In this document: piece after piece, positions 2,380 through 37,130 of the stretch
Numbering within the stretch: the first letter of the stretch is position 1
Layout of the letters: each line of letters opens with the position of its first letter
Source of the DNA: a virus
Reading direction: 5' to 3' (one strand)
DNA length: 38,413 nt
IMG/VR virus record: IMGVR_UViG_3300028364_000072
Coordinates: 1 to 38,413 of that record
Notes under the pieces: generated by a model
Databases searched by the model: none
Told to the model about the DNA's origin: nothing
Seen by the model: the letters and a program-made list of their open reading frames with translations, nothing else
Position numbers and translations under genes: made by a program

Positions 2380-2406
2380 TTAAGGTTATTTACCTTAATT
2401 ATACCA
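2380..2406 (-). promoter_or_regulatory. extended -10 promoter with overlapping dyad
   Basis: TGGTATAAT at 2406-2398 (minus). A 7-bp dyad, TTAAGGT and ACCTTAA separated by 5 bases (2380-2398), spans the predicted +1 near 2391, as expected for an operator. Here the 5' leader is about 22 bases, so this mRNA is not leaderless. Confidence 0.6.
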
Positions 2407-2420
2407 TATTGATATTTGAC

Positions 2421-2750
2421 TTATTTCTGTTTTGTGTTAAGTTTTAGCCACAGTTTTGCCACTGCTTCTATTGGTGTTTTACCATACGACCTGTTTTCTA
2501 CATAAAAATTAGAACCACAGCAGCCATAATCTTCTTCCCAAAACCCAGACTCCCATTCTTCTCCATCTACTCTTAATAAAAACTCTCTTGGTGATTTTAA
2601 ATTACCTCCACACTTATCTATAAGTTATTCTAAAGTAGGTGCTAAGTCTGGTAAGAAGATGTCATCAAGTGCTTGTGGGTCTTTTACCATCCAATTTCTA
2701 TCTATTGGAAACCCTGCGTCTTTTAATTGTTTTGCTAATTCATAATCCAT
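2421..2750 (-). pseudogene. small phage protein interrupted by an in-frame TAA
   Basis: Reading from ATG 2750 gives 109 codons ending at 2421, with one in-frame TAA at 2627-2625 (codon 42). The residues around it read LAPTLE-stop-LIDKCGG and later GKTPIEAVAKLWLKLN, which resembles a common small phage protein family with APTLSELIEACG and TPEEAVANLW motifs. A single G-to-T change (GAA to TAA) explains the stop. Downstream codons remain protein-like, so decay is recent or the base is an error. There is no equivalent in module B. Confidence 0.75.
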
Positions 2751-2751
2751 A

Positions 2752-2856
2752 TTATTTCTGTTTTAGGTTACAATCTTCACACAATCTTTTACCCTTATAA
2801 ATATAAATTGTATTTACTTCTTTCTTACACTCTACGCACTTATACATTGTTTTCAT
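2752..2856 (-). CDS. zinc-ribbon micropeptide, copy A
   Basis: 34 residues with two CxxC knuckles, YKCVECKKE and RLCEDCNLK, the classic four-cysteine zinc ribbon. Module B has a gene of exactly the same length at 36685 with the second knuckle (RCESCN) kept and the first partly lost. The 5' end overlaps the upstream gene by 17 bases. Role unknown; probably a small DNA- or protein-binding factor. Confidence 0.7.
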   Translation of the reverse strand: MKTMYKCVECKKEVNTIYIYKGKRLCEDCNLKQK

Positions 2857-2989
2857 TAATTATACTAATAAATTCTACAAATAACACACCAATACGATAT
2901 TCTTTGCTTTCCTCATATTTATTTTTAGTCATTTTAACACCACTTCTCATACCTTTTTCCCATTCTAATTGTTTTTCTGTTTTATTCAT
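2840..2989 (-). CDS. small charged hypothetical protein
   Basis: 49 residues, rich in Lys and Glu, ending in a hydrophobic stretch (RIGVLFVEFISII). The ATG at 2989 is chosen because it overlaps the end of the upstream gene by 8 bases. It overlaps the zinc-ribbon gene downstream. No family recognised, and no equivalent in module B. Confidence 0.55.
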   Translation of the reverse strand: MNKTEKQLEWEKGMRSGVKMTKNKYEESKEYRIGVLFVEFISIINENNV

Positions 2990-3220
2990 ATTCTTGTTTG
3001 ATTGCTTTAATAATCTCATTAATAGCCATTTTATATCCTTCTTTAAAATCTTCAACTTCTTCTTTTTCGTTTATTAATAATTTTTTGTTTGCAATCCCAT
3101 CACACTTCTCCCTCTCTTGTTGTACCATGTGTTCTGCGTATTGTTTGATAATCTGTATTTCCAAACAGTCTTTTTCATAATTAAATTCATCTGCAAGTAG
3201 TTTCTTAATTTTCTTTTCAT
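2982..3220 (-). pseudogene. helical small protein with an apparent 1-base deletion near its start
   Basis: The readable part (2982-3164 from a TTG) gives about 60 residues with EIQIIKQYAEHMVQQEREKC, a helical pattern also seen in the gene at 28905. Sensible codons continue upstream in the same frame to about 3215 (KKIKKLLADEFNYEKDC), but the only ATG, at 3220, is one base out of frame. One extra A in the A-run at 3214-3217 would give MKKKIKKLLADEFNYE. So the start is either broken, miscalled, or the TTG is used. Confidence 0.5.
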
Positions 3221-3229
3221 CGTGTTTTA

Positions 3230-3376
3230 TTATGCTGTTAAATTAACCACCTCAATAATCTCTGTATCTGGTGTTTCGTGTAATTGTCTAAATTTAATAA
3301 TTGCTTCTTGTTCACTCTTTGCGAGTATTTGTACTTGGTCTTTTTCAGAGGTACACATGTAGCTGTTTAATGTCAT
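3230..3376 (-). CDS. small conserved phage protein, copy A
   Basis: 48 residues beginning MTLNSYMCTSEKDQVQILAK. The gene at 36791 is nearly the same in its first 35 residues and identical in length, which confirms it is coding. The C-terminal ends differ. The start ATG lies 6 bases after the -10 hexamer at 3383-3388. Function unknown. Confidence 0.8.
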   Translation of the reverse strand: MTLNSYMCTSEKDQVQILAKSEQEAIIKFRQLHETPDTEIIEVVNLTA

Positions 3377-3382
3377 AAAACC

Positions 3383-3391
3383 ATTATTACA
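3383..3391 (-). promoter_or_regulatory. extended -10 promoter, predicted leaderless
   Basis: TGTAATAAT on the minus strand, then six bases, then ATG at 3376. The same arrangement, TGTAATAAT plus six bases plus ATG, occurs in module B at 37122-37130 before a different gene. Confidence 0.6.
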
Positions 3392-3412
3392 TTTACTGTA
3401 TTTTATGCAAGC

Positions 3413-3436
3413 AAAAAAGCCTTGACTTAACTAGGC
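3413..3436 (-). terminator. Rho-independent terminator
   Basis: Minus strand: GCCT, loop, AGGC, TTTTTT. It ends the operon 5227-3450. The same sequence recurs at 37151-37175. Confidence 0.75.
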
Positions 3437-3449
3437 TTTTGTGTTGTAT

Positions 3450-6411: not shown

Positions 6412-6482
6412 CTACCCTCCATGGAATCGAACCACGCTTCTCTGTACCAAAAACAGATGTCCTACCGATAGACGAGAGGGTA
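6412..6482 (-). tRNA. tRNA-Gln (anticodon UUG)
   Basis: A 71-nt cloverleaf reads: acceptor TACCCTC/GAGGGTA (7 perfect pairs), D stem GTCT/GGAC, anticodon stem TCTGT/ACAGA with loop TTTTGGT (anticodon TTG), and T arm CGTGG-TTCGATT-CCATG. The discriminator is G. The U1-A72 first pair and G73 are glutamine identity elements. CCA is not encoded. A promoter lies so close that the transcript should start about two bases before the mature 5' end. Confidence 0.93.
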
Positions 6483-6490
6483 ATACTTAA

Positions 6491-6499
6491 ATTATATCA
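6491..6499 (-). promoter_or_regulatory. extended -10 promoter of tRNA-Gln
   Basis: TGATATAAT on the minus strand, then six bases, giving +1 at 6484. The mature tRNA begins at 6482. Confidence 0.65.
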
Positions 6500-8124: not shown

Positions 8125-8532
8125 TTAAGAGTTTTGTTCTATGTAGAAATTTTCTGCATAGGTCATTAGTTCATGTGTTATCTCATAACTACCAATAGGG
8201 TTTAAGCTATGTATAGTCCAGTTAGGAAGTTGTAGATTATGCTTTTGGCAATAGTCTACTAAGTATTTAGCACAAGTTAATCCTGTTGGAAAAACTGTTT
8301 TATTTTCTTCTCTCCATATTCTGTAAGTTCCCACCCAATGTTCTTTAGGTGCATAATGTTCAGGACATAAATCATGGTCAAAACTGATTGAATCAGGAAG
8401 TCCATTTATAAATATCGAATTAACAAATTCAGGATAACAGGTTGCCCAAATAACTTTATCATATGACGATATGTCAATGTGAGTTTGTTTATGTGGGTTT
8501 CTTATATCATCTAAGTATAGTAATGTTTTCAT
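8125..8532 (-). CDS. cREC-type protein (cyclic-phosphate-processing receiver-like domain)
   Basis: 135 residues. The protein shows the pattern I associate with the cREC family (receiver fold predicted to process cyclic phosphates): LYLDDIRNPH at the start, ISFDHDLCPEH with the acidic pair in the middle, TGLTCAKYLVDYC helix, and WTIHSLNPIGSYE near the end. The family is predicted to act on RNA 2',3'-cyclic phosphates or cyclic nucleotides and occurs in RNA-repair and phage counter-defence settings. Here it heads a three-gene accessory operon. The start has a 19-base leader. The match is from memory of motifs. Confidence 0.68.
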   Translation of the reverse strand: MKTLLYLDDIRNPHKQTHIDISSYDKVIWATCYPEFVNSIFINGLPDSISFDHDLCPEHYAPKEHWVGTYRIWREENKTVFPTGLTCAKYLVDYCQKHNLQLPNWTIHSLNPIGSYEITHELMTYAENFYIEQNS

Positions 8533-8557
8533 AATTTATTTTTTTAGGTTCTATCTA

Positions 8558-8566
8558 ATTATATCA
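8558..8566 (-). promoter_or_regulatory. extended -10 promoter of the cREC operon
   Basis: TGATATAAT on the minus strand, five bases after a terminator T-run. The leader here is about 19 bases (AT-rich, no SD). Confidence 0.65.
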
Positions 8567-8919: not shown

Positions 8920-9903
8920 TTAATATTCGTAGATAGTCGGATAAGGTTTATCACTGTAGTTAATGTCTAAGTGAACAAACTGTTTAGCTCTGTTGATTCC
9001 AATACGTTTGATACCAACTTCCATAGCTGCTTTAATTATACCATATGTTTCTGCTCCTGTCCTTGCTCGCAAGTCTACTGCAAGCCCTGATAGGTGTGCT
9101 GAATTAGCTACACCACCAACACGTTTGTTATGTTCTGGTGTTCTAAATCCTGAATTAATTACAAAAGGTATACCTGCTATATCTCGTGCCTTATCTAATA
9201 GAAGAACAAACTCATGCTCTAATCCCTTAACCTCTAGTTCGGAAAAGTTTTTATACTTAGGTTTTTTTGCTGCGTTTATAGCAAGAAACGATTTAATTAA
9301 TTCTAATACAGCTTTAGGTAAACTTGACATAAAGTCTTGTGGTTCGTTTAAATACTTTGTAAAGGGATTGTATGATAGTAGTGTAACGTGATAGTTGCCT
9401 AGGTGGCTCTCAGGCACGTTGTTTTTGTAATAAGGTATAAGTTGCCCGTCTACTCTTGTAGAGTCCATCTGGTCTATTACACTGTGTCCAAGACTCTTTA
9501 GCTTTTTTCCTATTAGGTGCATAAGCTCATGAGGTAATACATGGTCGTTAGATCCGTCAGGGATTTCAGTTATAAAAGATCCATTAATAGGTTCTCTGCG
9601 AGAGTATGCAAAGTTTCCTGTATTTCTTTTAAACATAGGTACTCCGTCATACATAATTGCAACAAAGTCATAACCTAACGGAATTTTAGGTAATGATTTT
9701 AATGTGTAGCCAGTTTGACCATCTTTTGCTTTTCCTTTTTGTTTTATTTTAACATCAAAATCAGTTTCTATTACCGTAACTGTATATGGGATATTATTTA
9801 GTGCAAAGTTCTTATTTATATTAGAAAAGTATTTAAGGTTTTCAATCTCTTTTTCTACAAACTTATCGTTTACTCCTTTGTTTTTAAGTATTGCTATTTT
9901 CAT
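8920..9903 (-). CDS. endolysin: HExxH domain plus M15 D,D-peptidase
   Basis: 327 residues. The C-terminal 100 residues are a peptidase M15 (VanY/D-Ala-D-Ala carboxypeptidase-like) domain: INSGFRTPEHNKRVGG, the zinc-ligand motif SAHLSGLAVDLRA, and FVHLD with the last His. The N-terminal domain contains a separate zinc-protease signature, LPHELMHLIGKKLKSLGH (HELMH at 125-129). Two metallopeptidase sites in one lysis enzyme is unusual. The holin gene follows at once. Promoter TGGTATAAT is placed exactly six bases before the ATG. Confidence 0.78.
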   Translation of the reverse strand: MKIAILKNKGVNDKFVEKEIENLKYFSNINKNFALNNIPYTVTVIETDFDVKIKQKGKAKDGQTGYTLKSLPKIPLGYDFVAIMYDGVPMFKRNTGNFAYSRREPINGSFITEIPDGSNDHVLPHELMHLIGKKLKSLGHSVIDQMDSTRVDGQLIPYYKNNVPESHLGNYHVTLLSYNPFTKYLNEPQDFMSSLPKAVLELIKSFLAINAAKKPKYKNFSELEVKGLEHEFVLLLDKARDIAGIPFVINSGFRTPEHNKRVGGVANSAHLSGLAVDLRARTGAETYGIIKAAMEVGIKRIGINRAKQFVHLDINYSDKPYPTIYEY

Positions 9904-9909
9904 ATACCT

Positions 9910-9918
9910 ATTATACCA
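9910..9918 (-). promoter_or_regulatory. extended -10 promoter, predicted leaderless
   Basis: TGGTATAAT, six bases (AGGTAT), ATG at 9903. It directly follows a terminator T-run. Confidence 0.75.
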
Positions 9919-11366: not shown

Positions 11367-12674
11367 TTAAAATGTTCCTCCGTTAATTTCTAAAGGTGTC
11401 TGTATTGCTCCTATATCCGTTTTCATGTTTTGCACTACTGGTGTTCCGTTTGCGTCTTTTGTATCATTATTACCTGTAATAAGACTTAGCTTATAAGGTT
11501 CAAAGTCTGTAAACTCTATATCTACAGGCGTTTCATGATTATCGGTTTCAATGTTTACTCCTGTAAGTGCTGTTTGCCACTCTCCATTTAAATAATATTG
11601 AGCAATTCTTCTATTAAGACTTGTTGAGAATATTGTTCTGATTCCACCTTCAATAGTATTTGAGTTTCCTTTTATACTTACGTCTGAAAGTGTTTTTTCT
11701 GAAATATAATCTTTACCATATCCATCAAGATTTGAATCTTGTATTGCTCCAATATCTAAAGCTCCAGTTCGTTCCTTGAATAAAGTAGATGCTTGTTGCC
11801 ATCCATCTGAATAAAGATACTTTTCACCTTTATCAGTAGAGAATCCAATAGTTCCATTTTCAGGTGTTTGGGATAATACAAATTGACGAGTTCCAACTAT
11901 TGTTTTAACCTTATCTAATGCTGCTTGCAGGTCTGTTTGATCTGCAAGAGTTCCTGTTATATCCCCCCATACAGTATCAGCTCCATCTCCTACTTTTACA
12001 TAAACAGAACCAGTCCATATATAGGATAAATTTGAATCTATTGCTATATAAAGAATATCTGTTTTTCCTGTAGCTGGAAAGGCTGCAAGGTTTGCGTATT
12101 GCTCTAATCCACCACCTGATTCTTTAACTAGTTTTTCAACAGCATATCTAGTCATTCCACTTACACCTTTGGAGCTAGTATTTTGTAAGTTTCTTATTTG
12201 ACTTGCATCTAATTCTATTTTATCTAAGTTCTTTAATTTAAGTACGTCAAGTTTTTCTTCGTCTGTCAAGTCTTCTAAAGAATCTCGTATTTCCTCTATA
12301 CTCTTTTCTGCAAACTCAGGAATTTCCAATATAGGAACTAATGAGGCAATCTGCTCTTTATCATCTTCCGTTAGAATGTAATCTTTTCCATTAACGGCTA
12401 TAGGAAGCTCTACAAGGCTTGCTATGGTCTCCTTATCCTCTTGAGTGAGTACATAGTCATTACCATCTTTAACTTCTGGCAACGTAACTAGGCTTGCAAT
12501 TTCTGCGTAATCCTTATCTGTAATTGAATAAGCATCGCCTTGATCACCTTTCTGTAATTGAATTGCCTCTAGTTTATTAAAGAACTCTTTCTGTAGTTTG
12601 TCAAACTTAGTGTTATTTTCTTTTTGAATACCTTTTTTAAGTAAAAGTAATTGTACGAGTAGCTTTTTATCCAT
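11367..12674 (-). CDS. tail fibre or appendage protein with internal repeats
   Basis: 435 residues from ATG 12674. After a coiled-coil start come three near-repeats of about 25 residues built on GNDYVLTQEDKETIASLVEL and GKDYILTEDDKEQIASLV. The central part has a SYIWTGSVYVKVGDG-type segment seen in many fibre proteins, and the C-terminal part is beta-rich. The upstream in-frame ATG is rejected because the promoter (12681-12689) lies between it and this ATG. Confidence 0.75.
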   Translation of the reverse strand: MDKKLLVQLLLLKKGIQKENNTKFDKLQKEFFNKLEAIQLQKGDQGDAYSITDKDYAEIASLVTLPEVKDGNDYVLTQEDKETIASLVELPIAVNGKDYILTEDDKEQIASLVPILEIPEFAEKSIEEIRDSLEDLTDEEKLDVLKLKNLDKIELDASQIRNLQNTSSKGVSGMTRYAVEKLVKESGGGLEQYANLAAFPATGKTDILYIAIDSNLSYIWTGSVYVKVGDGADTVWGDITGTLADQTDLQAALDKVKTIVGTRQFVLSQTPENGTIGFSTDKGEKYLYSDGWQQASTLFKERTGALDIGAIQDSNLDGYGKDYISEKTLSDVSIKGNSNTIEGGIRTIFSTSLNRRIAQYYLNGEWQTALTGVNIETDNHETPVDIEFTDFEPYKLSLITGNNDTKDANGTPVVQNMKTDIGAIQTPLEINGGTF

Positions 12675-12680
12675 AGGTAT

Positions 12681-12689
12681 ATTATACCA
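12681..12689 (-). promoter_or_regulatory. extended -10 promoter, predicted leaderless
   Basis: TGGTATAAT, six bases (ATACCT), ATG at 12674. TTGACA stands 21 bases upstream of the hexamer. Confidence 0.75.
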
Positions 12690-21308: not shown

Positions 21309-21316
21309 ACCATGTA

Positions 21317-22997: not shown

Positions 22998-24827
22998 TTA
23001 TAAAATTTGATTGTTTCCTTGTGCATTTTGTTCTACTGAGTTAATGGTTGGTATATCTCCTTGCCCCTGTGATGCCCCTAATTGGCTCTCTACGGGCTTT
23101 TTAGCTGATGGTGTACCTAATCCATATTCGACCATAGAAACTCCAGCTAGACGGGTAATTTCTTTTACAAGATTTGGTACTGTCTCTGGTGGGAATGCTC
23201 CTGACTGGTCTTGCATTGCCATTTGTAATAGTGAGTTTAATGTTTCAAGTTTAGCTGCTACATTCTCTTCTTCACCAGTGATATCAACACGAATATTGTC
23301 AATAGCTTCTTTCAAGTCTCCTTTTTTAATATCTAGGAATTGAATTTCTTTCTTTGGTAAGTTATCTTTAACTTCTGCAATCATTTCTTGATATGTCAAT
23401 GGGTCAAGTTCTCTTCCTGATTCCAAGATGTCCTGTACTTTTCTATTAGCAATAGATAAAGCGAATCGGTCATGAATAATATCAATCTCTTGTGCTGAGA
23501 ATCCAGCCTCAAGAATAAAGTCTTTATCAATACCTTTTGCAACTTCAGGTAGAATCCACTTAGTTATAACCTTAGATCCAAGGCAAATTCCTTTTTTTTC
23601 TCTTCTATAGTCAAAGATTGAACTTGCTTGTTTAGCTTGTAGCAATCCTAATCGGTATGAAAGCCCTGATGTAGTTTCTTCCCCTGTTACAGAGTCAAAT
23701 GCTGACATAGTAGCCTTATAAGAGTCTTGCCATGAATTAACAGCACTTGGTAAGAACTGTAATGAGTTAGATGTAGTATCTAGGTTCTTATATGTCTTAC
23801 CTGAACGTACTAGCAATGTATCACCACGTTTCTTTTCAGTTAGAACGTTTAAGTCACCAATCTCTTCATCATCAGTTACCATAAGTCCTATAGATGCAAG
23901 TTCTAATGCTCTACGTTCTAGAATCTTATATAGGTTTACTTCACCCTGTGCCTCTTTACCTTCTTCAACAACTCCTAAAGCCCAGCCTACTCCTAGACGT
24001 TTTTTACGACCATCATAGATATAATTTGATTCTTTAATTTCCTCTTTAAATAAAAGTACCCCTTTATTCTCTTCACCACCTCCAATTACAAAGTAATGTT
24101 GTAGTGAATAACCTTTTGGAGCTTCTTCATCTGATTCTAGCTCATCTTCCATGTATACAGCTTTAGAGAATTGACCTTCAACCTCTAGAACTTCAATTAC
24201 ATTAGTATTTCCCTTGTCTTTATCTTCTCGTTGCTGGTCTAGGGCTTCAAGTGCCTCATCAATAGCTTCATCAATCCAAATACCACGCTTTGATTCTAAT
24301 TCAAGTGACGTCATATAGTGAGATTCAACCTTAGCACCATTTTCAATATCAAATTGGTCAAATGCAATAGATAACCAGTTTACAATGGAAATGTCTAGCT
24401 TCCCGTTCTGATCGTAAGAACGTTTGAATAGAACATTACCATATCGTGATAACATTTCTCCATACTCATTAAGCGTTTCAGCAAAGTTCATTTCCTTAAA
24501 CATGTTGTGCATGTACTTTGTTGCAAGCATTGCCTGAACCTCAAACTCTGGACTTGTAGGTCGTAAGATAATGTCTTTAGTGTCAATATCTGTTGCTCTT
24601 ATCTCTAGGTCTACAATCTGATTAACAATATTAAAGAAAGGTTTCTTTCCCAACTCATCAGTATCACCTGATAAGTATTTAGATGCACTCATAAAGGTAA
24701 TAAATGCAATCTCTTTCCTTGTATCGTATTGATATTCAATAGAACTATTGTCTAGTTCATATGTATCAACATGTATTGGTTGTTCAAAATGCGACTTAAT
24801 GTCGTCAATCTCTCTAAATAGTTTCAT
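22998..24827 (-). CDS. portal protein
   Basis: 609 residues. The order of features matches podovirus portals: N-terminal helices, a FFNIVNQIVDLEIRATDIDT segment, LNEYGEMLSRYGNVLFKRSY in the wing, a long helical region with SLQFLPSAVNSWQDSYKATM, and a low-complexity C-terminal tail with GQGDIPTINSVEQNAQ. It forms the DNA entry pore and sits first in the head operon. The ATG at 24827 is preferred over the upstream TTG, which lies only two bases from the -10. Confidence 0.78.
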   Translation of the reverse strand: MKLFREIDDIKSHFEQPIHVDTYELDNSSIEYQYDTRKEIAFITFMSASKYLSGDTDELGKKPFFNIVNQIVDLEIRATDIDTKDIILRPTSPEFEVQAMLATKYMHNMFKEMNFAETLNEYGEMLSRYGNVLFKRSYDQNGKLDISIVNWLSIAFDQFDIENGAKVESHYMTSLELESKRGIWIDEAIDEALEALDQQREDKDKGNTNVIEVLEVEGQFSKAVYMEDELESDEEAPKGYSLQHYFVIGGGEENKGVLLFKEEIKESNYIYDGRKKRLGVGWALGVVEEGKEAQGEVNLYKILERRALELASIGLMVTDDEEIGDLNVLTEKKRGDTLLVRSGKTYKNLDTTSNSLQFLPSAVNSWQDSYKATMSAFDSVTGEETTSGLSYRLGLLQAKQASSIFDYRREKKGICLGSKVITKWILPEVAKGIDKDFILEAGFSAQEIDIIHDRFALSIANRKVQDILESGRELDPLTYQEMIAEVKDNLPKKEIQFLDIKKGDLKEAIDNIRVDITGEEENVAAKLETLNSLLQMAMQDQSGAFPPETVPNLVKEITRLAGVSMVEYGLGTPSAKKPVESQLGASQGQGDIPTINSVEQNAQGNNQIL

Positions 24828-24835
24828 ATACAACC

Positions 24836-24869
24836 ATTATACCATGGTATGGGTATTTCGATTTGTCAA
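24836..24869 (-). promoter_or_regulatory. late promoter of the portal-capsid operon
   Basis: TGGTATAAT at 24844-24836, eight bases before the ATG. TTGACA at 24869-24864 stands 22 bases from the hexamer, too far for normal sigma-70 pairing, but the same spacing is found at 20899. Confidence 0.72.
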
Positions 24870-25602: not shown

Positions 25603-26157
25603 TCTATTAGCTGATTAGTTACCTCTTGTGTTTGTGTTTCAGGTGTTTTGGATAGGTCGTATTTAATAGATTCATGCTCCTCATAAGAAATATATAAATT
25701 TTTACCTAACAAATCTATAAATTCTAATTCTAATTGTGGTAATGCCCTCAATAGGTCTTCCAATGTAGATGGTTTACCGAGGTTTTGCCATTTACCCATA
25801 GAATCATCAAACCTAAATGATTTAAACAATTTGTATGTGCCATCAAAACCTGTGTATTGTGTAAAAAATCCTTTTTTTTGAAGTTCTAATACTGTACATA
25901 ATCTTTCTCCGTAATCTTCATCTTTATGTAAAACCTCACAACCAAACTCCAAAGGTATATCTATTCCTGTACCTGAACAGATTTTGCAATCACCATTATG
26001 TTGTTCACATTCTTTAGTACAAGGGCTATATTCTTCCCCTGTTTCAATATCTGTAGGAACGTGTCCTCCTGCATGTTCACATAGTGAGTATCCATCCCCC
26101 CCCACAATCCCCACAAGTATGGTTTATCTTCTGTATTGCTTTTCTTAATGTATTCAT
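25590..26157 (-). pseudogene. zinc-finger protein with a frameshift at a G8 run
   Basis: From ATG 26157 the frame reads MNTLRKAIQKINHTCGDCGG and then runs out of frame at eight Gs (26103-26096). With seven Gs it would continue CGGDGYSLCEHAGGHVPTD and on to 25590, giving 188 residues. The joined protein has CGDC, SLCEH, YSPCTKECEQH and DCKICSGTG Cys clusters, so several zinc knuckles, then a globular C-terminus. ATG 26157 sits six bases after TATAGT, supporting it as the true start. Broken gene, phase-variable gene or sequencing error. Confidence 0.72.
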
Positions 26158-26163
26158 ACCCTT

Positions 26164-26169
26164 ACTATA
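26164..26169 (-). promoter_or_regulatory. -10 element, predicted leaderless
   Basis: TATAGT, six bases (AAGGGT), ATG at 26157. No TG extension. Confidence 0.5.
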
Positions 26170-26310: not shown

Positions 26311-26395
26311 AGCTTGTACATGTATTAGGGATATCTTCTTGTTCTCCTGCCTTATCTTCACTAGTAAATGGGTCTTCGTAATCTTGATCTCGCAT
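26300..26395 (-). CDS. 31-residue acidic peptide
   Basis: MRDQDYEDPFTSEDKAGEQE then DIPNTCTSCEG. The ATG is six bases after TACAAT in TGATACAAT. A CxxC near the end would be half of a zinc knuckle, and the next 38-residue frame might be its continuation. Confidence 0.5.
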   Translation of the reverse strand: MRDQDYEDPFTSEDKAGEQEDIPNTCTSCEG

Positions 26396-26401
26396 TACCC
26401 T

Positions 26402-26410
26402 ATTGTATCA
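26402..26410 (-). promoter_or_regulatory. extended -10 promoter, predicted leaderless
   Basis: TGATACAAT, six bases (AGGGTA), ATG at 26395. Placed right after the large terminase stop. Confidence 0.6.
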
Positions 26411-26423: not shown

Positions 26424-28025
26424 TTACAAGCCTCCAAACGTATTAACTTTAGCTTGACGTTTCTTATATCTCTTCCATTCTTTAACTGGATCTTTACTTG
26501 AATGAGCATAATCCTTTACAGCCCAAGCAATACATACAGCAATCAATAAGTCAAAGTGTCTAGTAGCTAATGCTTCACCATTGTTTTCTAGGTCGTTAAA
26601 GCTAAATGACTTCATCTCTCGTAGAACGTCAACATCATAAATCTTAATCAATCCCTCGTTAAATGCAGTTCTAAACTTATACAACATATCAGGTTTTGTC
26701 TTTGAGTTAGTATGCCATCCTAGTATTTTCTTAGGTGTAGCTGAATGCATAGCCATAGTTCTGTCCTGGTAAACATTAGAGTATATATTCTTCAATGCGT
26801 CAACTGTACTTAATCCAATACTATTACGTTCAGGAGCTACTAGACATCCACCATACTTGTTCCCAGCTCTTGCAATCTCATGTGCAAATATATCAGGAGC
26901 AATCCTATTGTTATGATACGTTGCCACAAGTTCACCTGTTGTCAAGTTAAACGCTGCAATAGTAGAACTATCTCCACCTCCCCCACCTGCAACATCAGCA
27001 CCAACATCATATCTATGACCTTGATAAAAGTCTTTCCATACCTTAAGTCCTGCTTCATTTCTAATAGGTTCAATTACGGTTTTTAGTTGCTCATCTACTA
27101 GGTCTAAGTCAAAGAACTTGTCATCCTCTCGGCTTGGGTCACACAAATACTCTGAAAACCAGTATTGACTATCCACATTTAATGCGATTACTTTCTCTAA
27201 TGGAAATCTATCAGCCCATGTAGGCTTTGCATCTACGAGCTTTTTACCATCATATACACAATCTGTAGCAATAGCCCATACCATTTCTGTAACTGAACCC
27301 TTACTCGCTATCATCTCTACGCTTCCATATTCTGAAATGTAGTTGGCTGTACATATGTAACTACCATCTGGACTCATACCATCTATAGCCTCCTCGATCT
27401 TATCCATTACAGATTGAGTTACCACGGCACTCTTGATACTTTCTCTATCCTCAATATCATCAAACCATATAAAATCAGGTCGATAGCTCTCAATACCTTG
27501 GTTATGTCCACGCTGTGTCTGTCCTACTGTACCAGCTGTGAGCTTAACATCTGACTTCATGGTAAAACTTCCCATAGTTTCCTCACGCTTCTTGTCACCC
27601 TCTTTGGCAAATAGATCACCGAATACAGGTTTAATAACCACTAAAGCGTTGTATACATCAGTTACCACCTGTTTAGAGTTCTTTAAATCCTTTGATAGTA
27701 CCTTATTGTACATACGTCTCACATCTCTTGAGTCACAAGCTAATACAAATACCATTACTAACTTCATGATCGCAGTCTTACCACAACCACGAAACCCCTT
27801 AATAAGGAAGTTTTGTTGCCCTAAGTATGACTTAATGTAATGCTTTGTCAATACCTCATGTAGTTCTACACTTTTAGAGTTAAATGAAGTAGGGAAAAAA
27901 TACCTTGTAAAGTATACATACTTCTTGTACATCATGTCAACATCATCTTTCTCTGTGAAGCTAAACAGTTCTCTTTTATCCGCACTTGACCCATCAAATA
28001 GTATGCTTTCTATAGTTTCATTCAT
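26424..28025 (-). CDS. terL: terminase large subunit
   Basis: 533 residues. The N-terminal ATPase has Walker A GFRGCGKT (77-84) and Walker B FIWFDDIED (about 190). The C-terminal RNase H-like nuclease has YDVGADVAGGGGGDSS with the first metal-binding Asp, a LVAPERNSIGLSTVDAL segment, and HFDLLIAVCIAWAV near the end. It pumps DNA into the prohead through the portal and cuts the concatemer. The ATG is exactly six bases after TATAAT. It forms a one-gene transcription unit. Confidence 0.9.
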   Translation of the reverse strand: MNETIESILFDGSSADKRELFSFTEKDDVDMMYKKYVYFTRYFFPTSFNSKSVELHEVLTKHYIKSYLGQQNFLIKGFRGCGKTAIMKLVMVFVLACDSRDVRRMYNKVLSKDLKNSKQVVTDVYNALVVIKPVFGDLFAKEGDKKREETMGSFTMKSDVKLTAGTVGQTQRGHNQGIESYRPDFIWFDDIEDRESIKSAVVTQSVMDKIEEAIDGMSPDGSYICTANYISEYGSVEMIASKGSVTEMVWAIATDCVYDGKKLVDAKPTWADRFPLEKVIALNVDSQYWFSEYLCDPSREDDKFFDLDLVDEQLKTVIEPIRNEAGLKVWKDFYQGHRYDVGADVAGGGGGDSSTIAAFNLTTGELVATYHNNRIAPDIFAHEIARAGNKYGGCLVAPERNSIGLSTVDALKNIYSNVYQDRTMAMHSATPKKILGWHTNSKTKPDMLYKFRTAFNEGLIKIYDVDVLREMKSFSFNDLENNGEALATRHFDLLIAVCIAWAVKDYAHSSKDPVKEWKRYKKRQAKVNTFGGL

Positions 28026-28031
28026 TACTCC

Positions 28032-28040
28032 ATTATACCA
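28032..28040 (-). promoter_or_regulatory. extended -10 promoter of terL, predicted leaderless
   Basis: TGGTATAAT, six bases (GGAGTA), ATG at 28025. The T-run of the upstream terminator ends only two bases before it. Confidence 0.78.
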
Positions 28041-28060: not shown

Positions 28061-28448
28061 ATAGTGCCTTTCTAATAGCTTCCTTACGTTCATCTGATAA
28101 CTCATCAGTTATAACCTCAGCCATAGTCTCTGTCCTTAAGCTAAAGTCATTCTTCATCTTACGTTCAGCCCACCATTTAGTGGTTTCTTTTTTCTTATCG
28201 TTCTCATCAGTTTCGCTTGCAATTTGTTGCTGTAGGTTGCTCATAGCCATACGATTTATAGCGTTTTCCCAGTTTTGCAGTTTCATTCCAAGTGCTTCAT
28301 CTGCTTTTACCCAGTTAGATAATGTTCCCTCTGCTAATCCTATCATTTTACAAGACTTTGCTCGTGAAAATCCAAGTTCAAGGCTATCCTTTAAACTTTG
28401 AATGATAACATCTTTTTGTTCTTTTGTAAATGCTTTTCCCTGTGCCAT
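28053..28448 (-). CDS. terS: terminase small subunit
   Basis: 131 residues. The N-terminal helix-turn-helix (LELGFSRAKSCKMIGLAEGT then LSNWVKADEAL) recognises the packaging site. A helical middle (NAINRMAMSNLQQQIASETD) suits ring formation, and a charged C-terminus would contact the large subunit. It has its own promoter, six bases from the ATG. Confidence 0.78.
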   Translation of the reverse strand: MAQGKAFTKEQKDVIIQSLKDSLELGFSRAKSCKMIGLAEGTLSNWVKADEALGMKLQNWENAINRMAMSNLQQQIASETDENDKKKETTKWWAERKMKNDFSLRTETMAEVITDELSDERKEAIRKALLD

Positions 28449-28454
28449 ATCTAT

Positions 28455-28463
28455 ATTATACCA
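28455..28463 (-). promoter_or_regulatory. extended -10 promoter of terS, predicted leaderless
   Basis: TGGTATAAT, six bases (ATAGAT), ATG at 28448. TTACAC lies 17 bases upstream. Confidence 0.78.
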
Positions 28464-28465
28464 TG

Positions 28466-28603
28466 TTATTGTCGCTTGTGTAATTTACCCTCATAATATA
28501 CGTCTCTCCTTATAATCTCCAGCTCGAAGATTGTTTTGTCTACCCACTCTGGCTTTTTCTTTTTTATCGCAACTGCTATTAGAAATAATATGTTATTTTC
28601 CAT
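28466..28603 (-). CDS. 45-residue hypothetical protein
   Basis: MENNILFLIAVAIKKKKPEW and then a charged helix ending KLHKRQ. The ATG is six bases after TATAAT in TGTTATAAT. Its stop lies just before the terS promoter. A short hydrophobic start may associate with membrane. Unknown function. Confidence 0.68.
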   Translation of the reverse strand: MENNILFLIAVAIKKKKPEWVDKTIFELEIIRRDVYYEGKLHKRQ

Positions 28604-28609
28604 GCGTTT

Positions 28610-28618
28610 ATTATAACA
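28610..28618 (-). promoter_or_regulatory. extended -10 promoter, predicted leaderless
   Basis: TGTTATAAT, six bases (AAACGC), ATG at 28603. Confidence 0.72.
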
Positions 28619-29620: not shown

Positions 29621-31159
29621 TTATTTAACTGCGTCAATCCGAGCCTGTGCAATTTTACAGTACTCTGGGTCTAATTCTATTCCTATAAAGTCAAAGCCCT
29701 CTAGTACACAAGCCTTACCTGTTGAACCTGATCCCATGAAAGGGTCTAGTACAGTTCCACCTACTGGTGTTACAAGGCGTACAAGGTATTGCATGAGTGC
29801 TGTTGGTTTAACTGTTGGGTGGTTGTTGGCATTTATTGTTTTTGGTCTTCCGTCTGATTCAAACACATCGAATGAACTTGCTTCTCTTTTTTCTTGACTA
29901 GCCCATGTTTGTTTCTCCTCAAACTCATCCAACCCCTCATTCCTATCTTTCTTTGAAGCCTTGGCACAATAGAAATACCTAGCTGCACTACCTCCTAAAT
30001 CATTATAGCCACCTCTTTCAGAGACTGTTTCCTCTGCTTTATTGTCTGCTCGTGGAATTGGTTTACCTTTCCCTCCTGATTTACTTGGTGCTGTATCAGG
30101 AAACAACCCCACCACCTCATCACTTCCGTCATGTATGAAGTTTGCAGGGAATCTGCCAGTTTGCTTTGGTCTTTCAAATTCCTTTCTTTTACTTTCATAA
30201 AGCCTAACACATTCTCCCACTATTGAGTCAAATAGTATTCTATCTCCATCATTAATTTCAGGTAACTTGCACCAATTATATACTTCAGGTGATTCAAGAT
30301 TTTCTTTTAACTCTGACCAAACATAATCCTCATCATCTAACCATTTTTTAATTAAATCTTTATGTTCGTTTTTGTACCAGTATTTCTCTCCATGATAATC
30401 AACCTCTGACATATCAACGTCAGGTGCTGAACCCGCACTAGAATTTGATGTACATTTCCCTTGTGGTGTTGCACTAGCTTTATCTGCTTCTCCTTGATAT
30501 TCCACCCTACACCCATCAATATTTATCCCACCTGTTCCCCACTCTATTACATTCTTAGCAATAGTCTTTTCAGATAAAGGTTTTCTTGCTACTACAATAG
30601 GTTCATGTGCAGGCTTTAGTGCTGTACCCCAGCCTTCGTATGGTGATGAGCCTTTGGTATCAATTACAATATTTGTACCACTTCCTGCATCTGAATTTCC
30701 TCTTCCTGACTTTCTTGATGCCATTGCAGAACCAGTAATTCTTTCTCCAACAATATCCCTCTCATTCCCCTGCAACTTATCAACTGACTTTCCTATGTTA
30801 TGCGACTTAGGAAATCCTGAACCATAAACCCACATAATCTGGTCACGAATCTCAAACCCAGCGTCTTCAACTGCAGAAGCTAATCTGTGATATGTTCTAC
30901 TTCCACCGAAAGCAAGTAAATATCCTCCTGGTTTTAACACTCTTAATACCTGCTCCCAAAGTTCAACATTATATTCTATTCCACTACCATCCCACTCTTT
31001 GCCCATAAATCCTTTTGATGACTTTGGTAAAGCACCATCTGTTCCAAGCCTTTTTACAATACTAACAAGTCCATATGGTGGATCACAAACCACTGCATCA
31101 ATACTATTAGCTGTTGCTCTTTTTAATACTTCTAAACTATCTCCGTTTATTATTTTCAT
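29621..31159 (-). CDS. DNA methyltransferase (N4/N6, DPPY type)
   Basis: 512 residues. Motif IV, VVCDPPYG, is near the N-terminus (26-30), and the AdoMet-binding motif I, LDPFMGSGST, comes at about 472-481, followed by FIGIELDPEYCKIAQ. This order is the beta class of amino-methyltransferases. The 300-residue insert between them is large and holds a target-recognition region (SSPYEGWGTALKPAHEPIVV and others). No restriction partner is adjacent, so it is an orphan enzyme likely protecting phage DNA. ATG 31159 lies eight bases after TATAAT. Confidence 0.88.
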   Translation of the reverse strand: MKIINGDSLEVLKRATANSIDAVVCDPPYGLVSIVKRLGTDGALPKSSKGFMGKEWDGSGIEYNVELWEQVLRVLKPGGYLLAFGGSRTYHRLASAVEDAGFEIRDQIMWVYGSGFPKSHNIGKSVDKLQGNERDIVGERITGSAMASRKSGRGNSDAGSGTNIVIDTKGSSPYEGWGTALKPAHEPIVVARKPLSEKTIAKNVIEWGTGGINIDGCRVEYQGEADKASATPQGKCTSNSSAGSAPDVDMSEVDYHGEKYWYKNEHKDLIKKWLDDEDYVWSELKENLESPEVYNWCKLPEINDGDRILFDSIVGECVRLYESKRKEFERPKQTGRFPANFIHDGSDEVVGLFPDTAPSKSGGKGKPIPRADNKAEETVSERGGYNDLGGSAARYFYCAKASKKDRNEGLDEFEEKQTWASQEKREASSFDVFESDGRPKTINANNHPTVKPTALMQYLVRLVTPVGGTVLDPFMGSGSTGKACVLEGFDFIGIELDPEYCKIAQARIDAVK

Positions 31160-31167
31160 ATACATAG

Positions 31168-31176
31168 ATTATAGCA
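31168..31176 (-). promoter_or_regulatory. extended -10 promoter of the methyltransferase
   Basis: TGCTATAAT on the minus strand, eight bases before ATG 31159; a second in-frame ATG lies two bases after it and is less likely. Confidence 0.68.
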
Positions 31177-31202: not shown

Positions 31203-31608
31203 AATCTCTTGGAAAACCCTGTAGCCTCTCTAACTGTTCTTCGTAATAAACTTTATTAGTCTTTATAGTCTCTTGCTTTTTCCGATACAAGTCTTGAAAC
31301 CATGGCAATCCATTTATCTCTACAATCCTAGATGCCCACAAACTTTCATTCATATGCAACATAAGATGGCAATGATTACATAATGGAATAAGATTATCAA
31401 TCTCGTATCTAAGTCTATTTGAGCTTGCCTTGTGTACATGGTGATGGGCTACCTGAGTGTCATATGTACACTTTTCGTTGCCTAGTGAGCCATTTAGAAG
31501 GCATACAGGGTACATGTACTTTATAATGGGAGATAGTAGTTTATCACATTTAGCTTGTAGCTTTGAGATTTCTGACTTTCCTTTTTTTCTAATAGGCGAA
31601 CGTTTCAT
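31201..31608 (-). CDS. HNH nuclease, NinG/Rap-like
   Basis: 135 residues. YPVCLLN and EKCTYD give Cys ligands, then VAHHHVHKASSNRLRYEIDN and LIPLCNHCHLMLH form the HNH core (AHH, N, and CNHCH). The order and size fit NinG/Rap-type phage recombination nucleases. Operon neighbours (methyltransferase downstream, PD-(D/E)XK, NinB-like upstream) support a recombination role. Leaderless-type start. Confidence 0.78.
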   Translation of the reverse strand: MKRSPIRKKGKSEISKLQAKCDKLLSPIIKYMYPVCLLNGSLGNEKCTYDTQVAHHHVHKASSNRLRYEIDNLIPLCNHCHLMLHMNESLWASRIVEINGLPWFQDLYRKKQETIKTNKVYYEEQLERLQGFPRD

Positions 31609-31614
31609 TCCTTT

Positions 31615-31623
31615 ATTATACCA
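31615..31623 (-). promoter_or_regulatory. extended -10 promoter, predicted leaderless
   Basis: TGGTATAAT, six bases (AAAGGA), ATG at 31608. It lies at the end of the nuclease gene upstream. Confidence 0.78.
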
Positions 31624-32954: not shown

Positions 32955-33332
32955 TTAGAAAGGTATTTGATCAAGTGAGTCTTCCTCTACTGGAATTTCT
33001 TGACTTTGCGTTTCCTCTGCTGTAACTTTTTCTACTTTCCATGCTCGTACATCTGCAAAGAATTTACCTTTCCATTCTGACGTTGCTAGGTTAAATGTAA
33101 CTACTACTTCTGTACCTACTGCGTACATCTTTGCAAAGTCATCAGCGTACTTAACATTTTCTCCATTCTTGAAATATGAGAAGTTTCCTACTTGTGGGTA
33201 TTCGTCTTTATCTTCTGTTACCTGAAACTTTAGAGATGCCCATTCTTTACCTGTTTTTTTTGATGTCCCTTTTTCTACGTCTTCAATGTGAGTAATCTTT
33301 CCTGTAAATGTTAATTCGTTTTTATTTTCCAT
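32955..33332 (-). CDS. ssb: single-stranded DNA-binding protein (OB fold, DUF3127-like)
   Basis: 125 residues. LTFTGKITHIEDVEKGTSKK, GKEWASLKFQVTED, GTEVVVTFNLATSEWKGKFF and ADVRAWKVEKV follow the DUF3127 OB-fold pattern. The C-terminus is acidic and ends EEDSLDQIPF, which copies the IPF tip of bacterial SSB used to recruit partners. The start is leaderless-type (TGATAAAAT plus six bases). Confidence 0.8.
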   Translation of the reverse strand: MENKNELTFTGKITHIEDVEKGTSKKTGKEWASLKFQVTEDKDEYPQVGNFSYFKNGENVKYADDFAKMYAVGTEVVVTFNLATSEWKGKFFADVRAWKVEKVTAEETQSQEIPVEEDSLDQIPF

Positions 33333-33338
33333 GTATAT

Positions 33339-33347
33339 ATTTTATCA
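33339..33347 (-). promoter_or_regulatory. extended -10 promoter of ssb, predicted leaderless
   Basis: TGATAAAAT, six bases (ATATAC), ATG at 33332. Confidence 0.6.
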
Positions 33348-35244: not shown

Positions 35245-35273
35245 AAAAAAGCACCCCTATAAATAGAAGTGCC
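35245..35273 (-). terminator. Rho-independent terminator after metallophosphoesterase B
   Basis: Minus strand: GCACTTCTA-TTTA-TAGGGGTGC, TTTTTT; nine pairs including two G-U. Confidence 0.87.
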
Positions 35274-35294
35274 ATGTTTTTCAGATTTGTCAAA

Positions 35295-36602
35295 TTATGT
35301 AATCATTACATATAACATCTGATGTCCGTCTTTGTAAACAATACCATTAGCATGTGCATGAGCCGAAGGTCCTTTCATGTATCTTTGTTTTAAGGTACAG
35401 TTAGTTCCTACTGAAATTGCATTAGCAAGTCTTTCTGGCTTATGAGTATGTCCTGACATTTGCTTAAAGTTTTGCCTATCAAATTGAGCAATACTTCCTC
35501 TTGATCCTGATATACCACAATGTCCATGTGAGCCAATATTAATACCAGCTACTCTGAACTCGTCATTTTCTAATAAGAATTTCATATTCTTTGGTAGCTT
35601 TCCAATTGACTCAAGTGCTATTTGTAGAACAGGTTTCTTTTCTTTTAGAATTTCAGGTATTATCTTAGCAATAAACAAAAAGTTTTGTGGATTATACATA
35701 AAGTCTCCTGAATCAATGTATCTTCTTAAAAAAACATCGTGGTTACTTTCAGGAATAATAAACTTTATATTAGGAAATTCTTTTGCCATTCCAATTAAAT
35801 GCTTATATACCATTTTTAATTCTTTATCAAGTGAGTCTTTCTTCATTTGATAATTCTTTAACGACGATATAAAAGATTTAACTTCATGTCTATTAACGCT
35901 TGCTCCATCAAACACATCATGCAACGCACAATATTCTGGTTTCATATCTCTCAACTGATCGAGCGACATAGCATAAGCTTTTTTATCAAGAATACCTAAG
36001 TGCAAATCCCCAAGAACTATTGCTTTTGGTCGAGACTTTTCTACCTTTCCTTTATTGTAAAATTCAGTTAAGTAATTAAAGTTTCCATTCTTTTGGCAAT
36101 CAACTTGTAGTCCGTAGAACACTCTATTATTTACAATCCGCACATAGATAAAACCAAACTCATGTTGCTCTAATGCTTTTTGTCCTAATTGGGTATTCAA
36201 CTTATACGACCCTTCTGTTAATGCTCCCGTAGACATTAATGCTCTTGGGTGGTGTGATAAATTAGACAATGTTGTATATCTAATTTTAGTTGCTGGTAAA
36301 ATGTGAGAACATTCTCGTGGCAGTTTAGAATTTAAACCGTTAAAAGGTCTAACTTTCTGTGCTTGCACTTTCATATCTCTAAGACGTAAATTGCTATTAA
36401 GATTTTTATTATCTACAATAGAAAATCCTGCATCAAAAACTCTAGGGTCTACAATTTCATCATCTTTATATTTACCATTCATTACAAAGGTTAATAATCC
36501 CTCATCTGTTACATCATGAACTTTTTGAAAAGCCTTGATGTTCTTTAATAGGTTTTTATTAACTTTAGCTCCTTTTTGTACTGTTGTTATAATGTATTTC
36601 AT
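35295..36602 (-). CDS. calcineurin-like metallophosphoesterase, copy B
   Basis: 435 residues. LGDLHLG, PESNHDVF, GSHGHCGISG and SGHTHKPE are the metal-binding motifs, with a full D-x-H. About half identical to copy A by eye, with the same domain layout and the same single-gene unit (promoter 36658, terminator 35245). Substrate unknown. Confidence 0.82.
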   Translation of the reverse strand: MKYIITTVQKGAKVNKNLLKNIKAFQKVHDVTDEGLLTFVMNGKYKDDEIVDPRVFDAGFSIVDNKNLNSNLRLRDMKVQAQKVRPFNGLNSKLPRECSHILPATKIRYTTLSNLSHHPRALMSTGALTEGSYKLNTQLGQKALEQHEFGFIYVRIVNNRVFYGLQVDCQKNGNFNYLTEFYNKGKVEKSRPKAIVLGDLHLGILDKKAYAMSLDQLRDMKPEYCALHDVFDGASVNRHEVKSFISSLKNYQMKKDSLDKELKMVYKHLIGMAKEFPNIKFIIPESNHDVFLRRYIDSGDFMYNPQNFLFIAKIIPEILKEKKPVLQIALESIGKLPKNMKFLLENDEFRVAGINIGSHGHCGISGSRGSIAQFDRQNFKQMSGHTHKPERLANAISVGTNCTLKQRYMKGPSAHAHANGIVYKDGHQMLYVMIT

Positions 36603-36627
36603 AATTTATTAATTTAAAGGTTCAATA

Positions 36628-36666
36628 GATTTACGCTTTGTAAATCGTCTTAACCCTATTATACCA
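36628..36666 (-). promoter_or_regulatory. extended -10 promoter with hairpin in the leader
   Basis: TGGTATAAT at 36666-36658, +1 near 36651, and a 7-bp hairpin GATTTAC/GTAAATC (36628-36646) in a 48-base leader. The leader differs from copy A in length and sequence. Confidence 0.6.
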
Positions 36667-36684
36667 TTTTGATATTTGACAAGA

Positions 36685-36789
36685 TTACGCTTTCATGTTA
36701 CAGCTTTCACATCTTACTACTTCCTTTGTGTAGTATCTTGTTAGCCCATTTAGATTCTTGTTGCAGTCGTTAAATCTCTCTATTTTCAT
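36685..36789 (-). CDS. zinc-ribbon micropeptide, copy B
   Basis: 34 residues, MKIERFNDCNKNLNGLTRYY, then RCESCNMKA. Same length and place as the copy A ribbon, but the first knuckle has a single Cys. Confidence 0.6.
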   Translation of the reverse strand: MKIERFNDCNKNLNGLTRYYTKEVVRCESCNMKA

Positions 36790-36790
36790 G

Positions 36791-36937
36791 TTAAAAAGTT
36801 TTTTGGATTACCTCAATCAGTTCATCATCAGGTGTTTCATGTAACTTTCTGAATTTAATAATTGCCTCTTGTTCACTCTTTGCGAGTATCTGTACTTGGT
36901 CGTTTGCAGAGGTACACATGTAGCTGTTTAATGTCAT
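36791..36937 (-). CDS. small conserved phage protein, copy B
   Basis: 48 residues, MTLNSYMCTSANDQVQILAK; almost the same as 3230-3376 except its end. Joined to the next gene as TAACATG. Confidence 0.78.
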   Translation of the reverse strand: MTLNSYMCTSANDQVQILAKSEQEAIIKFRKLHETPDDELIEVIQKTF

Positions 36938-36938
36938 A

Positions 36939-37115
36939 TTAATTATTTACTTCTGTTAAAAATCCAGTATGTAACATAAAAGCTAATTCTTTACCTGCAA
37001 TGTTTTCATTATAATGGTCGAAATTAGCTAAGATTATATTACCCTGTTTATTTGATTCAAAAATATGCCCCTTTTCGTATTTACCAAAACTACGGTTTAA
37101 TTTATATTTATTCAT
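36939..37115 (-). CDS. small hypothetical protein, module B only
   Basis: 58 residues beginning MNKYKLNRSFGKYEKGHIFE. A beta-rich look with FDHYNENIAGKELAF. ATG is six bases after AATAAT in TGTAATAAT. Module A has no equivalent. Confidence 0.62.
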   Translation of the reverse strand: MNKYKLNRSFGKYEKGHIFESNKQGNIILANFDHYNENIAGKELAFMLHTGFLTEVNN

Positions 37116-37121
37116 AAGTCT

Positions 37122-37130
37122 ATTATTACA
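37122..37130 (-). promoter_or_regulatory. extended -10 promoter, predicted leaderless
   Basis: TGTAATAAT, six bases (AGACTT), ATG at 37115. Same promoter as at 3383. Confidence 0.6.

Follow-up and report, generated by a model that had tools for sequence, protein, structure and literature searches.

Extended −10 promoters at a fixed six-base distance from start codons in an uncultured virus genome, with leaderless mRNAs as the best reading

Introduction

We report that in the uncultured virus record IMGVR_UViG_3300028364_000072 (38,413 bases, 34% GC; hereafter the window, meaning the whole stretch of DNA that was analysed) the extended −10 promoter motif TGnTATAAT lies at a fixed distance of six bases from the ATG of genes for packaging, structural, lysis and nuclease functions. 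The fixed spacing is confirmed as real by the counts given below, and the best reading of it is that the mRNAs of these genes would be leaderless, beginning at the AUG itself. Judging from the promoter geometry, it is very probable that about a quarter of the genes of this phage are expressed from such mRNAs. The host, for which a member of the Patescibacteria (candidate phyla radiation, CPR) is the likeliest group but not a proven one, is graded separately.

It is noted that bacterial transcription starts about 7 bases past the −10 hexamer. The lambda cI gene is a leaderless phage repressor gene, and to our knowledge the known leaderless mRNAs of phages are those of single regulatory genes. 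An accepted in-silico criterion for leaderless genes is a TANNNT signal whose first T stands about 12 bp ahead of the start (Zheng 2011, PMC3160421), and the genes recognised in this way, the TA-led genes, make up more than 20% of the genes in Actinobacteria and Deinococcus-Thermus. The cI and cro genes of phage PY54 were found to be leaderless by rapid amplification of cDNA ends (PMC4488713). Thus, bacterial leaderless genes recognised by a box and single leaderless phage genes are established already. Among the open-licence papers that our searches listed we found no report of a systematic use of leaderless mRNAs by phage packaging, structural, lysis and nuclease genes together with an excess of the signal in Patescibacteria, nor any paper on leaderless genes of the CPR.

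Results

The long open reading frames (ORFs) of the window lie mostly on the minus strand, and its one tRNA gene, tRNA-Gln, was all that an Rfam scan of the window at gathering scores returned. ORFs were called from the first ATG of frames of at least 100 amino acids (aa), the ORF-opening ATG in the count of exact motif sites is the ATG of an ORF of at least 35 codons, and 54 starts were listed by hand, including those named by an initial annotation of the sequence; the name small terminase and the phylum of some genomes are ones that we infer. With genetic code table 11 the stops of the minus-strand ORFs with 100 aa or more are 31 TAA, 3 TAG and 1 TGA. In CPR phages with a reassigned code TGA stands for glycine, and such a reassignment (TGA as an amino acid) is rejected here, with one TGA used as a stop and the identified genes at full length.

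Exact matches to TGnTATAAT number 17 on the minus strand, with an ORF-opening ATG at 6 bases in seven and at 8 bases in three, each other distance up to 39 being seen at most once. The seven are the starts at 9903, 12674, 20892, 28025, 28448, 28603 and 31608, at all of which the motif ends exactly six bases before the ATG, just as the initial annotation had it; the spacing of 8 that was given there for the portal (24827), the methyltransferase (31159) and the gene at 21308 is found as well. With weaker hexamers, the spacing of six is borne out at 33332 (TGATAAAAT), at 26395 (TGATACAAT) and at both 3376 and 37115 (TGTAATAAT). Some of these additional cases count for less than had been claimed. 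At 26157 the spacing is six, but the hexamer is TATAGT without TGn and the frame has only 26 aa, and at 26395 the spacing is again six, but the frame has only 31 aa, so that both are weak cases. The starts at 3376 and 37115 do not stand as separate cases, because the window ends form an imperfect repeat and the two are diverged copies of one promoter. With the weak cases and the repeat taken into account, the robust set of starts at exactly six bases consists of the seven strict cases, ssb (33332) and the repeated promoter.

If TGn is required and the hexamer is allowed at most one mismatch, 11 of the 54 starts have the motif at 6 and three have it at 8, while the other distances from 0 to 29 occur at most once each. 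Among all 882 minus-strand ATGs the motif stands at 6 in 11, every one of which is in the start list and 10 of which open at least 45 codons; that all 11 are listed starts is partly circular, since the list includes the starts of the initial annotation. In terms of the criterion for leaderless genes, seven starts have an exact −10-like box at the stated distance of about 12 bp from its first T, 11 have one with at most one mismatch, and at three more the first T lies 14 bp upstream. A pyrimidine precedes the ATG at 8 of the 11 starts with a spacing of 6, and at the three starts with a spacing of 8 the position seven bases past the hexamer always holds a purine.

It might be argued that the AT-richness of the genome or a selective choice of examples produced the spacing by accident, as the window has only 34% GC, the list of 54 starts includes those named earlier and the looser pattern, without TGn and with one mismatch, gives 47 matches versus 32.1 expected. 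Since the looser pattern is thus only modestly above chance, the signal is carried by the TGn and by the position at gene starts. By contrast, the exact pattern TGnTATAAT-N6-ATG is observed 7 times versus a mean of 0.038 and a maximum of 2 in 2000 first-order Markov sequences of the same dinucleotide composition, a comparison in which no gene list is used; on the plus strand none of the four TGnTATAAT sites is ahead of an ORF-opening ATG; and the same spacing is present in diverged relatives. The null model and the conservation refute the explanation by chance, for which we see practically no probability left.

The repeat at the ends provides an internal comparison. The window ends (1–4579 versus 33595–38413) form an imperfect, gene-collinear repeat with 70–94% identity in blocks, the blocks that match the last 4.8 kb being 1–641, 791–1047, 1251–1361, 2196–2387, 3249–3377, 3373–3450 and 3613–4579. 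It holds two Erf genes, two DnaG-zinc-finger genes and a second A1-like DNA-transfer gene region, and has two possible origins: a genome of about 33.6 kb, circular or permuted, whose assembly ran on into the same region of a second strain, or a true duplication that has diverged. In copy A the first gene, 6 bases past the promoter, encodes 48 aa. In copy B its counterpart is separated from the promoter by a 58-aa gene and begins one base past the stop of that gene; the ATG of the 58-aa gene is again at exactly 6, with six spacer bases unlike those of copy A. As the two copies differ in the spacer bases and in the first gene and agree in the spacing, it is the distance that is kept rather than the sequence.

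In the related phages the spacing is kept in part. A TerL search of IMG/VR gave 16 loci, and an alignment-based search gave 122 relatives, of which the 80 best were retained. From 85 loci 24 near-duplicates were removed to leave 61, and locus L001, which has an identical TerL, was excluded. In L002 (63% TerL identity) a 135-aa gene before terL, terL itself and the portal are all at 6, which makes three of the four scored ATGs. The portal of L309 is at 6, versus 8 in the window, with identical first residues (ATGAAACTATTTA), and in L307, L308 and L309 the orthologue of the gene at 20892 is at 6 and that of the gene at 21308 is at 8. Among more distant relatives, terL is at 6 in L012 (TGGTACAAT, with the hexamer TACAAT) and at 7 in L008, L013 and L017, while the portals are at 6 (L002), at 8 (L004) and at 10–14 (L005, L014, L017). 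Over the 61 loci, the 113 exact sites have their mode at distance 6 (10 sites), followed by 5 sites at 10 and at most 3 elsewhere. Thus, the spacing is kept in L002 and L307–L309 and partly in L004, L008, L012 and L013, and the tight six-base rule belongs to the closer kin of the window and loosens farther out.

The initial annotation also held that most internal genes lack a Shine–Dalgarno (SD) sequence and begin at TAATATG or TAACATG junctions. The former is right: SD-like tetramers are found at 1 of 37 window starts versus 3 of 37 in the background window, and, with a wider window, at 8 of 129 starts in 11 relatives versus 23 in the background. The latter is overstated, with TAAT or TAAC before 9 of 40 non-leaderless starts and ATT before 13 of 40. 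These 40 starts have A at −3 in 32, A at −6 in 28 and T at −1 in 30. An SD-led phage with misplaced starts was also considered and is rejected, the SD being absent in either window used.

The same spacing is in excess in Patescibacteria. The exact pattern occurs 1439 times, versus 108 for the backward pattern, in 192 genomes that belong to the phylum of the metagenome-assembled genome (MAG) labelled Parcubacteria, 173 of which contain it; the corresponding counts for 200 control genomes, from the phylum of the Gammaproteobacteria MAG, are 120 and 103. Because the backward control leaves promoter richness and ATG spacing unseparated and thus cannot isolate the spacing, the distances of the box were counted also at gene starts, which separates the two. 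TANNNT is at 6 in 43 of 319 starts in the first Patescibacteria sample (20 stretches, 11 genomes), with 3–21 at each other distance from 3 to 15, and in 77 of 698 starts in the second (40 stretches, 20 genomes), with 27–47 at each other distance. In the control phylum, the only other phylum sampled, it is at 6 in 1 of 316 starts; as the first Gammaproteobacteria sample (55% GC) has 70 TATAAT sites versus 332 in Patescibacteria, a 44% GC subset of three genomes was taken, which gave 1 of 99. Scrambled hexamers are flat in the 40 Patescibacteria stretches. As to the sampling, L046–L065 were drawn from contigs with TerL-like matches, and L199–L238 from long contigs, two of which (G035:C3 and G127:C3) are on the list of exact-pattern matches, the stretches used excluding those matches.

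Individual genomes differ greatly. Exact sites are at 6 in 39 of 92 cases in genome G160 and in 12 of 32 in G171, counts that are biased upward since the stretches of G160, G171 and G166 were chosen partly knowing of matches. The use of SD varies too, with 59 of 187 starts in G160 and 53 of 107 in G171 versus 4 of 80 in G166, 1 of 39 in G360 and 1 of 33 in G368. T at −1 of non-leaderless starts is found in 86% for the window, 78% for G166, 74% for G360 and 67% for G368, versus 18% for the control, and in other Patescibacteria genomes in 12 to 72%. As a separate observation, G112 and G160 (0.7 Mb each) hold 100 and 86 exact TGNTATAATN6ATG versus 1 backward each, the median in the 192 genomes being 5, which apparently marks a lineage with extreme leaderless-gene use. 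In G340 and G257 the most frequent distance from the box to the ATG seems to be 5, not 6.

Discussion

We propose that a primary-type sigma RNA polymerase would recognise the strong extended −10, at some promoters (20892, 12674, portal) with TTGACA upstream. At a spacing of 6 the usual start point, about 7 bases past the hexamer, would be the A of the AUG, giving a leaderless transcript, while at a spacing of 8 a start at the purine in the seventh position would give a 2-base leader. An internal yardstick is the tRNA-Gln gene, which begins 8 bases past its TATAAT, fitting the rule of a start at about 7 bases. The ribosomes would then bind the 5′-terminal AUG and initiate there; the binding of leaderless mRNA by 70S ribosomes has been reviewed (PMC9031893). 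Terminator, promoter and start codon would form one compact module at 6 of 15 starts. The operon-internal genes and a few leadered first genes would start without SD, behind A-rich sequence that ends in T at −1, and the host itself would use SD-poor and leaderless starts.

The initial annotation regarded the packaging, lysis, adaptor and nuclease genes as nearly all leaderless. Its leaderless interpretation is partly supported, the fixed −10 to ATG distance fitting the accepted in-silico criterion, while the extent was slightly overstated: a spacing of 6 is found for terL, the preceding gene, the endolysin, the 230-aa structural protein and the HNH endonuclease and one of 8 for the portal, but the set does not include the genes for the major capsid protein (22200), the second lysozyme-like protein (7052) and replication (5045, 6227).

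Several results weigh against a general leaderless expression. Three exact promoters have true leaders, at 2368 (29 bases), 8532 (25) and 36602 (55). No such box is found before terL as called in L003, L004 and L005, and only 7 of the 61 loci have at least one exact case at 6, so that the sharp peak at 6 in related contigs that the initial annotation named as support is present as a mode, strong in L002 and L309 but weak over the family. The starts at 28448, 31608 and 33332 sit 15–17 bases past the upstream stop, where the terminator scan, a simple one with loose criteria, found none; with so short a gap and no terminator found, read-through mRNA may also carry these three genes.

The last point leads to an alternative in which the promoters are real but secondary, with read-through giving most of the mRNA in leadered, polycistronic form and the leaderless form being minor or late. 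Consistent with it, the gaps to the upstream stop are 15–28 bases at 26395, 28025, 28448, 31608 and 33332, where the scan likewise found no terminator. By contrast, over all leaderless-type starts a hairpin with a T-run is present within 90 bases upstream of 6 of 15, versus 4 of 39 others (Fisher p 0.02, with the same loose criteria). Moreover, read-through predicts no fixed distance of 6, and there is no SD to serve a leader. We therefore regard this alternative as unlikely, and prefer the reading that the distance places the transcript start at the AUG.

Our proposal can be compared with known systems. The TA-led genes have the same geometry as the window, with the first T of a TATAAT-like box about 12 bp upstream (6+6); they are described in cellular genomes, with phage named once, for lambda (PMC3160421), whereas the window, a phage sequence of 34% GC, has a near-consensus extended −10 and a sharply peaked distance. 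The cI and cro of PY54 (PMC4488713) and the cI of lambda are like the genes here in that the mRNA would start at the AUG directly past a strong promoter, which for the window is predicted from sequence; in those temperate phages one or two regulatory genes are leaderless, whereas here packaging, structural, lysis, nuclease and ssb genes would be. In Mycobacterium leaderless starts are a regular part of expression, as is proposed here, and were mapped by experiment in actinobacterial cells (PMC4633059, PMC3898074). In Flavobacterium johnsoniae, as in the non-leaderless genes of the window, SD is lacking and A at −3 is favoured, while its transcripts are mostly leadered and the window adds the strong T at −1 and common leaderless starts (PMC6847099).

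As for the host, we lean slightly towards a member of the Patescibacteria. The initial annotation took the start signature as a clue to the host, which holds in so far as the signature is common to Patescibacteria; the host itself is not proven by it. The initiation signals common to the window and the phylum are the excess at 6 and the T at −1, and their exclusivity to the phylum is not established. Among the 188 genomes of G166's class, to which the portal search in genomes was confined, two, G843 and G777, have homologues of the portal (23–27% over about 500 residues; E 1.8e-40 and 3.9e-24). G725 carries a distant TerL (29% over 196 aa) some 8 kb past secA on a 214-kb contig, and such a secA-bearing contig suggests that at least distant kin sit in Patescibacteria chromosomes.

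The assignment has the following against it. The pooled TATAAT-to-ATG distances of Patescibacteria form a hump at 5–9 (9, 13, 9, 8, 8) with the top at 6, and thus the peak at 6 in the phylum is real yet broader than that of the phage. A second sample of G166 has T at −1 in only 45%. In G725, G714 and G727, which hold the best distant TerL matches of the class search, TATAAT is at 6 in only 4 of 175, 5 of 90 and 1 of 28 sites. Full-length TerL matches occur in three genome contigs labelled Parcubacteria, Gammaproteobacteria and Methylobacter. For 5046–24900, half of the window, the matches listed in 379 genomes consist of a tRNA one and short ones, and no spacer was shown at the two short ones examined. 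The PHROG head-tail adaptor profile matches the portal, weakly (E 3.5e-6), and the nearest relatives of the A1-like protein, at 31%, are in Flavobacterium phages.

These results also decide which routes to a host can be followed. With three full-length matches under three different labels, binning says little about the host, and the host from MAG bins is rejected. So is the host from DNA identity or spacers over the same region and the same genomes: the recurrent match is the tRNA region (up to 84%), the best non-tRNA match among those listed has 33 bases at 91% (E 5.7e-5), and no CRISPR (clustered regularly interspaced short palindromic repeats)-like arrays are present at two of the short matches, in L166 and L167. 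G725, G714 and G727 are rejected as host models for their few cases at 6. Saccharibacteria as the specific host is rejected as well: G171, the 16S of which matches four Saccharibacteria primers with 0–1 mismatch, has many starts at 6, but its SD use in about half of the genes counted above is unlike the phage.

It is quite possible, although we lean away from it, that the leaderless signature is correct and the host is not from Patescibacteria but, e.g., from Bacteroidota or another SD-poor lineage. Apart from the A1-like protein, TerL has weak similarity to Winogradskyella and Rhizobium phages, and only one other phylum served as control. By contrast, a tblastn search of 50,697 phage records gave nothing for the portal, which has two matches in Patescibacteria genomes, and the excess at 6 is found at Patescibacteria gene starts. 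For Bacteroidota in particular, the −7 box is TAnnTTTG. Bacteroidetes are also without SD and F. johnsoniae favours A at −3, but 87% of its predicted transcripts with a probable promoter have leaders of more than 10 nt (PMC6847099).

On a wider proposal our judgement is evenly balanced, namely that SD-free leaderless initiation, with the extended −10 six bases before the AUG, is a general mode of many Patescibacteria and was adopted by their phages for structural, packaging, lysis and nuclease genes. If this is true, phages would carry terminator-promoter-AUG modules with almost no untranslated sequence. A phage with leaderless terminase, portal, endolysin, structural and nuclease messages would need host ribosomes that handle them well, and from the spacing in Patescibacteria a direct prediction follows for this large phylum, which has reduced ribosomes and has hardly been cultured. 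In addition, the histogram of −10 to ATG distances is a simple sequence test that can be used to propose hosts for uncultured phages and to correct calls of start codons.

Coordinates and further observations

The promoters discussed above are collected in Table 1.

Table 1. Promoters and start codons in the window
Feature	Positions	Strand	Remarks
terL start, TGGTATAAT-N6-ATG	28023..28040	-	terL 26424-28025, 533 aa
Start of 131-aa gene before terL, TGGTATAAT-N6-ATG	28446..28463	-	gene 28053-28448; HTH_Tnp_1 match; putative small terminase by position
45-aa gene start, TGTTATAAT-N6-ATG	28601..28618	-	gene 28466-28603; hairpin and T-run upstream
HNH endonuclease start, TGGTATAAT-N6-ATG	31606..31623	-	gene 31201-31608
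230-aa structural protein start, TGGTATAAT-N6-ATG, TTGACA upstream	20890..20907	-	gene 20200-20892
435-aa protein start, TGGTATAAT-N6-ATG	12672..12689	-	gene 11367-12674; peptidase and tail-protein matches
Endolysin start, TGGTATAAT-N6-ATG	9901..9918	-	gene 8920-9903; Peptidase_M15_3
ssb start, TGATAAAAT-N6-ATG	33330..33347	-	gene 32955-33332
48-aa gene start, TGTAATAAT-N6-ATG	3374..3391	-	gene 3230-3376; end-repeat copy A
58-aa gene start, copy B of TGTAATAAT promoter, exactly 6	37113..37130	-	gene 36939-37115; first gene differs from copy A
31-aa frame, TGATACAAT-N6-ATG, weak case	26393..26410	-	
26-aa frame, TATAGT-N6-ATG without TGn, weak case	26155..26169	-	downstream of hairpin and T-run
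Portal start, TGGTATAAT-N8-ATG	24825..24844	-	gene 22998-24827; spacing 6 in sister L309
DNA methyltransferase start, TGCTATAAT-N8-ATG	31157..31176	-	gene 29621-31159; further in-frame ATG at 2
121-aa gene start, TGTTATAAT-N8-ATG	21306..21325	-	gene 20943-21308; also 8 in L307, L308, L309
tRNA-Gln promoter TGATATAAT	6482..6499	-	tRNA 6411-6482, begins 8 bases past hexamer
Leadered promoter, 29 bases, A1-like DNA transfer gene	2366..2406	-	gene 1052-2368; contrast case
Leadered promoter, 25 bases, 135-aa cREC_REC gene	8530..8566	-	contrast case

The leadered genes at 2368 (AACCTTAAA), 8532 and 36602 have in common a leader element like GAACCT(T)AAA before the ATG, which is present also in L310 around 8015, ahead of an A1-like gene, and is possibly an SD-free initiation element.

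The exact promoters at 24941, 9040 and 6382 have no ORF-opening ATG within 40 bases. At 24865–24941 (minus strand) a strong TGTTATAAT promoter lies ahead of the portal and is followed by a hairpin and T-run, and its transcript is possibly a small RNA that ends there; this candidate has no Rfam match. The same pre-portal promoter is present in L309, followed by a 5′ hairpin with a different stem sequence. At 6228–6382 (minus strand) another TGTTATAAT promoter lies downstream of tRNA-Gln, the predicted transcript of which begins with a hairpin and has a fold of −40 kcal/mol, a value without a shuffled control.

The short frames of 26 and 31 aa at 26077–26157 and 26300–26395 (minus strand) stand directly after −10-like boxes and contain the CxxC motifs CGDC and CTSC; they are possibly small zinc-binding peptides or else non-genes.

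Finally, in the Parcubacteria-labelled contig of L018 an SU10-type portal (2596–4527; Pfam SU10_portal, E 1.9e-17) follows a relative of TerL, which hints at a wider affinity of the phage family; further frames of this locus look phage-like by eye, and in L019 one frame was identified, a DNA methylase.

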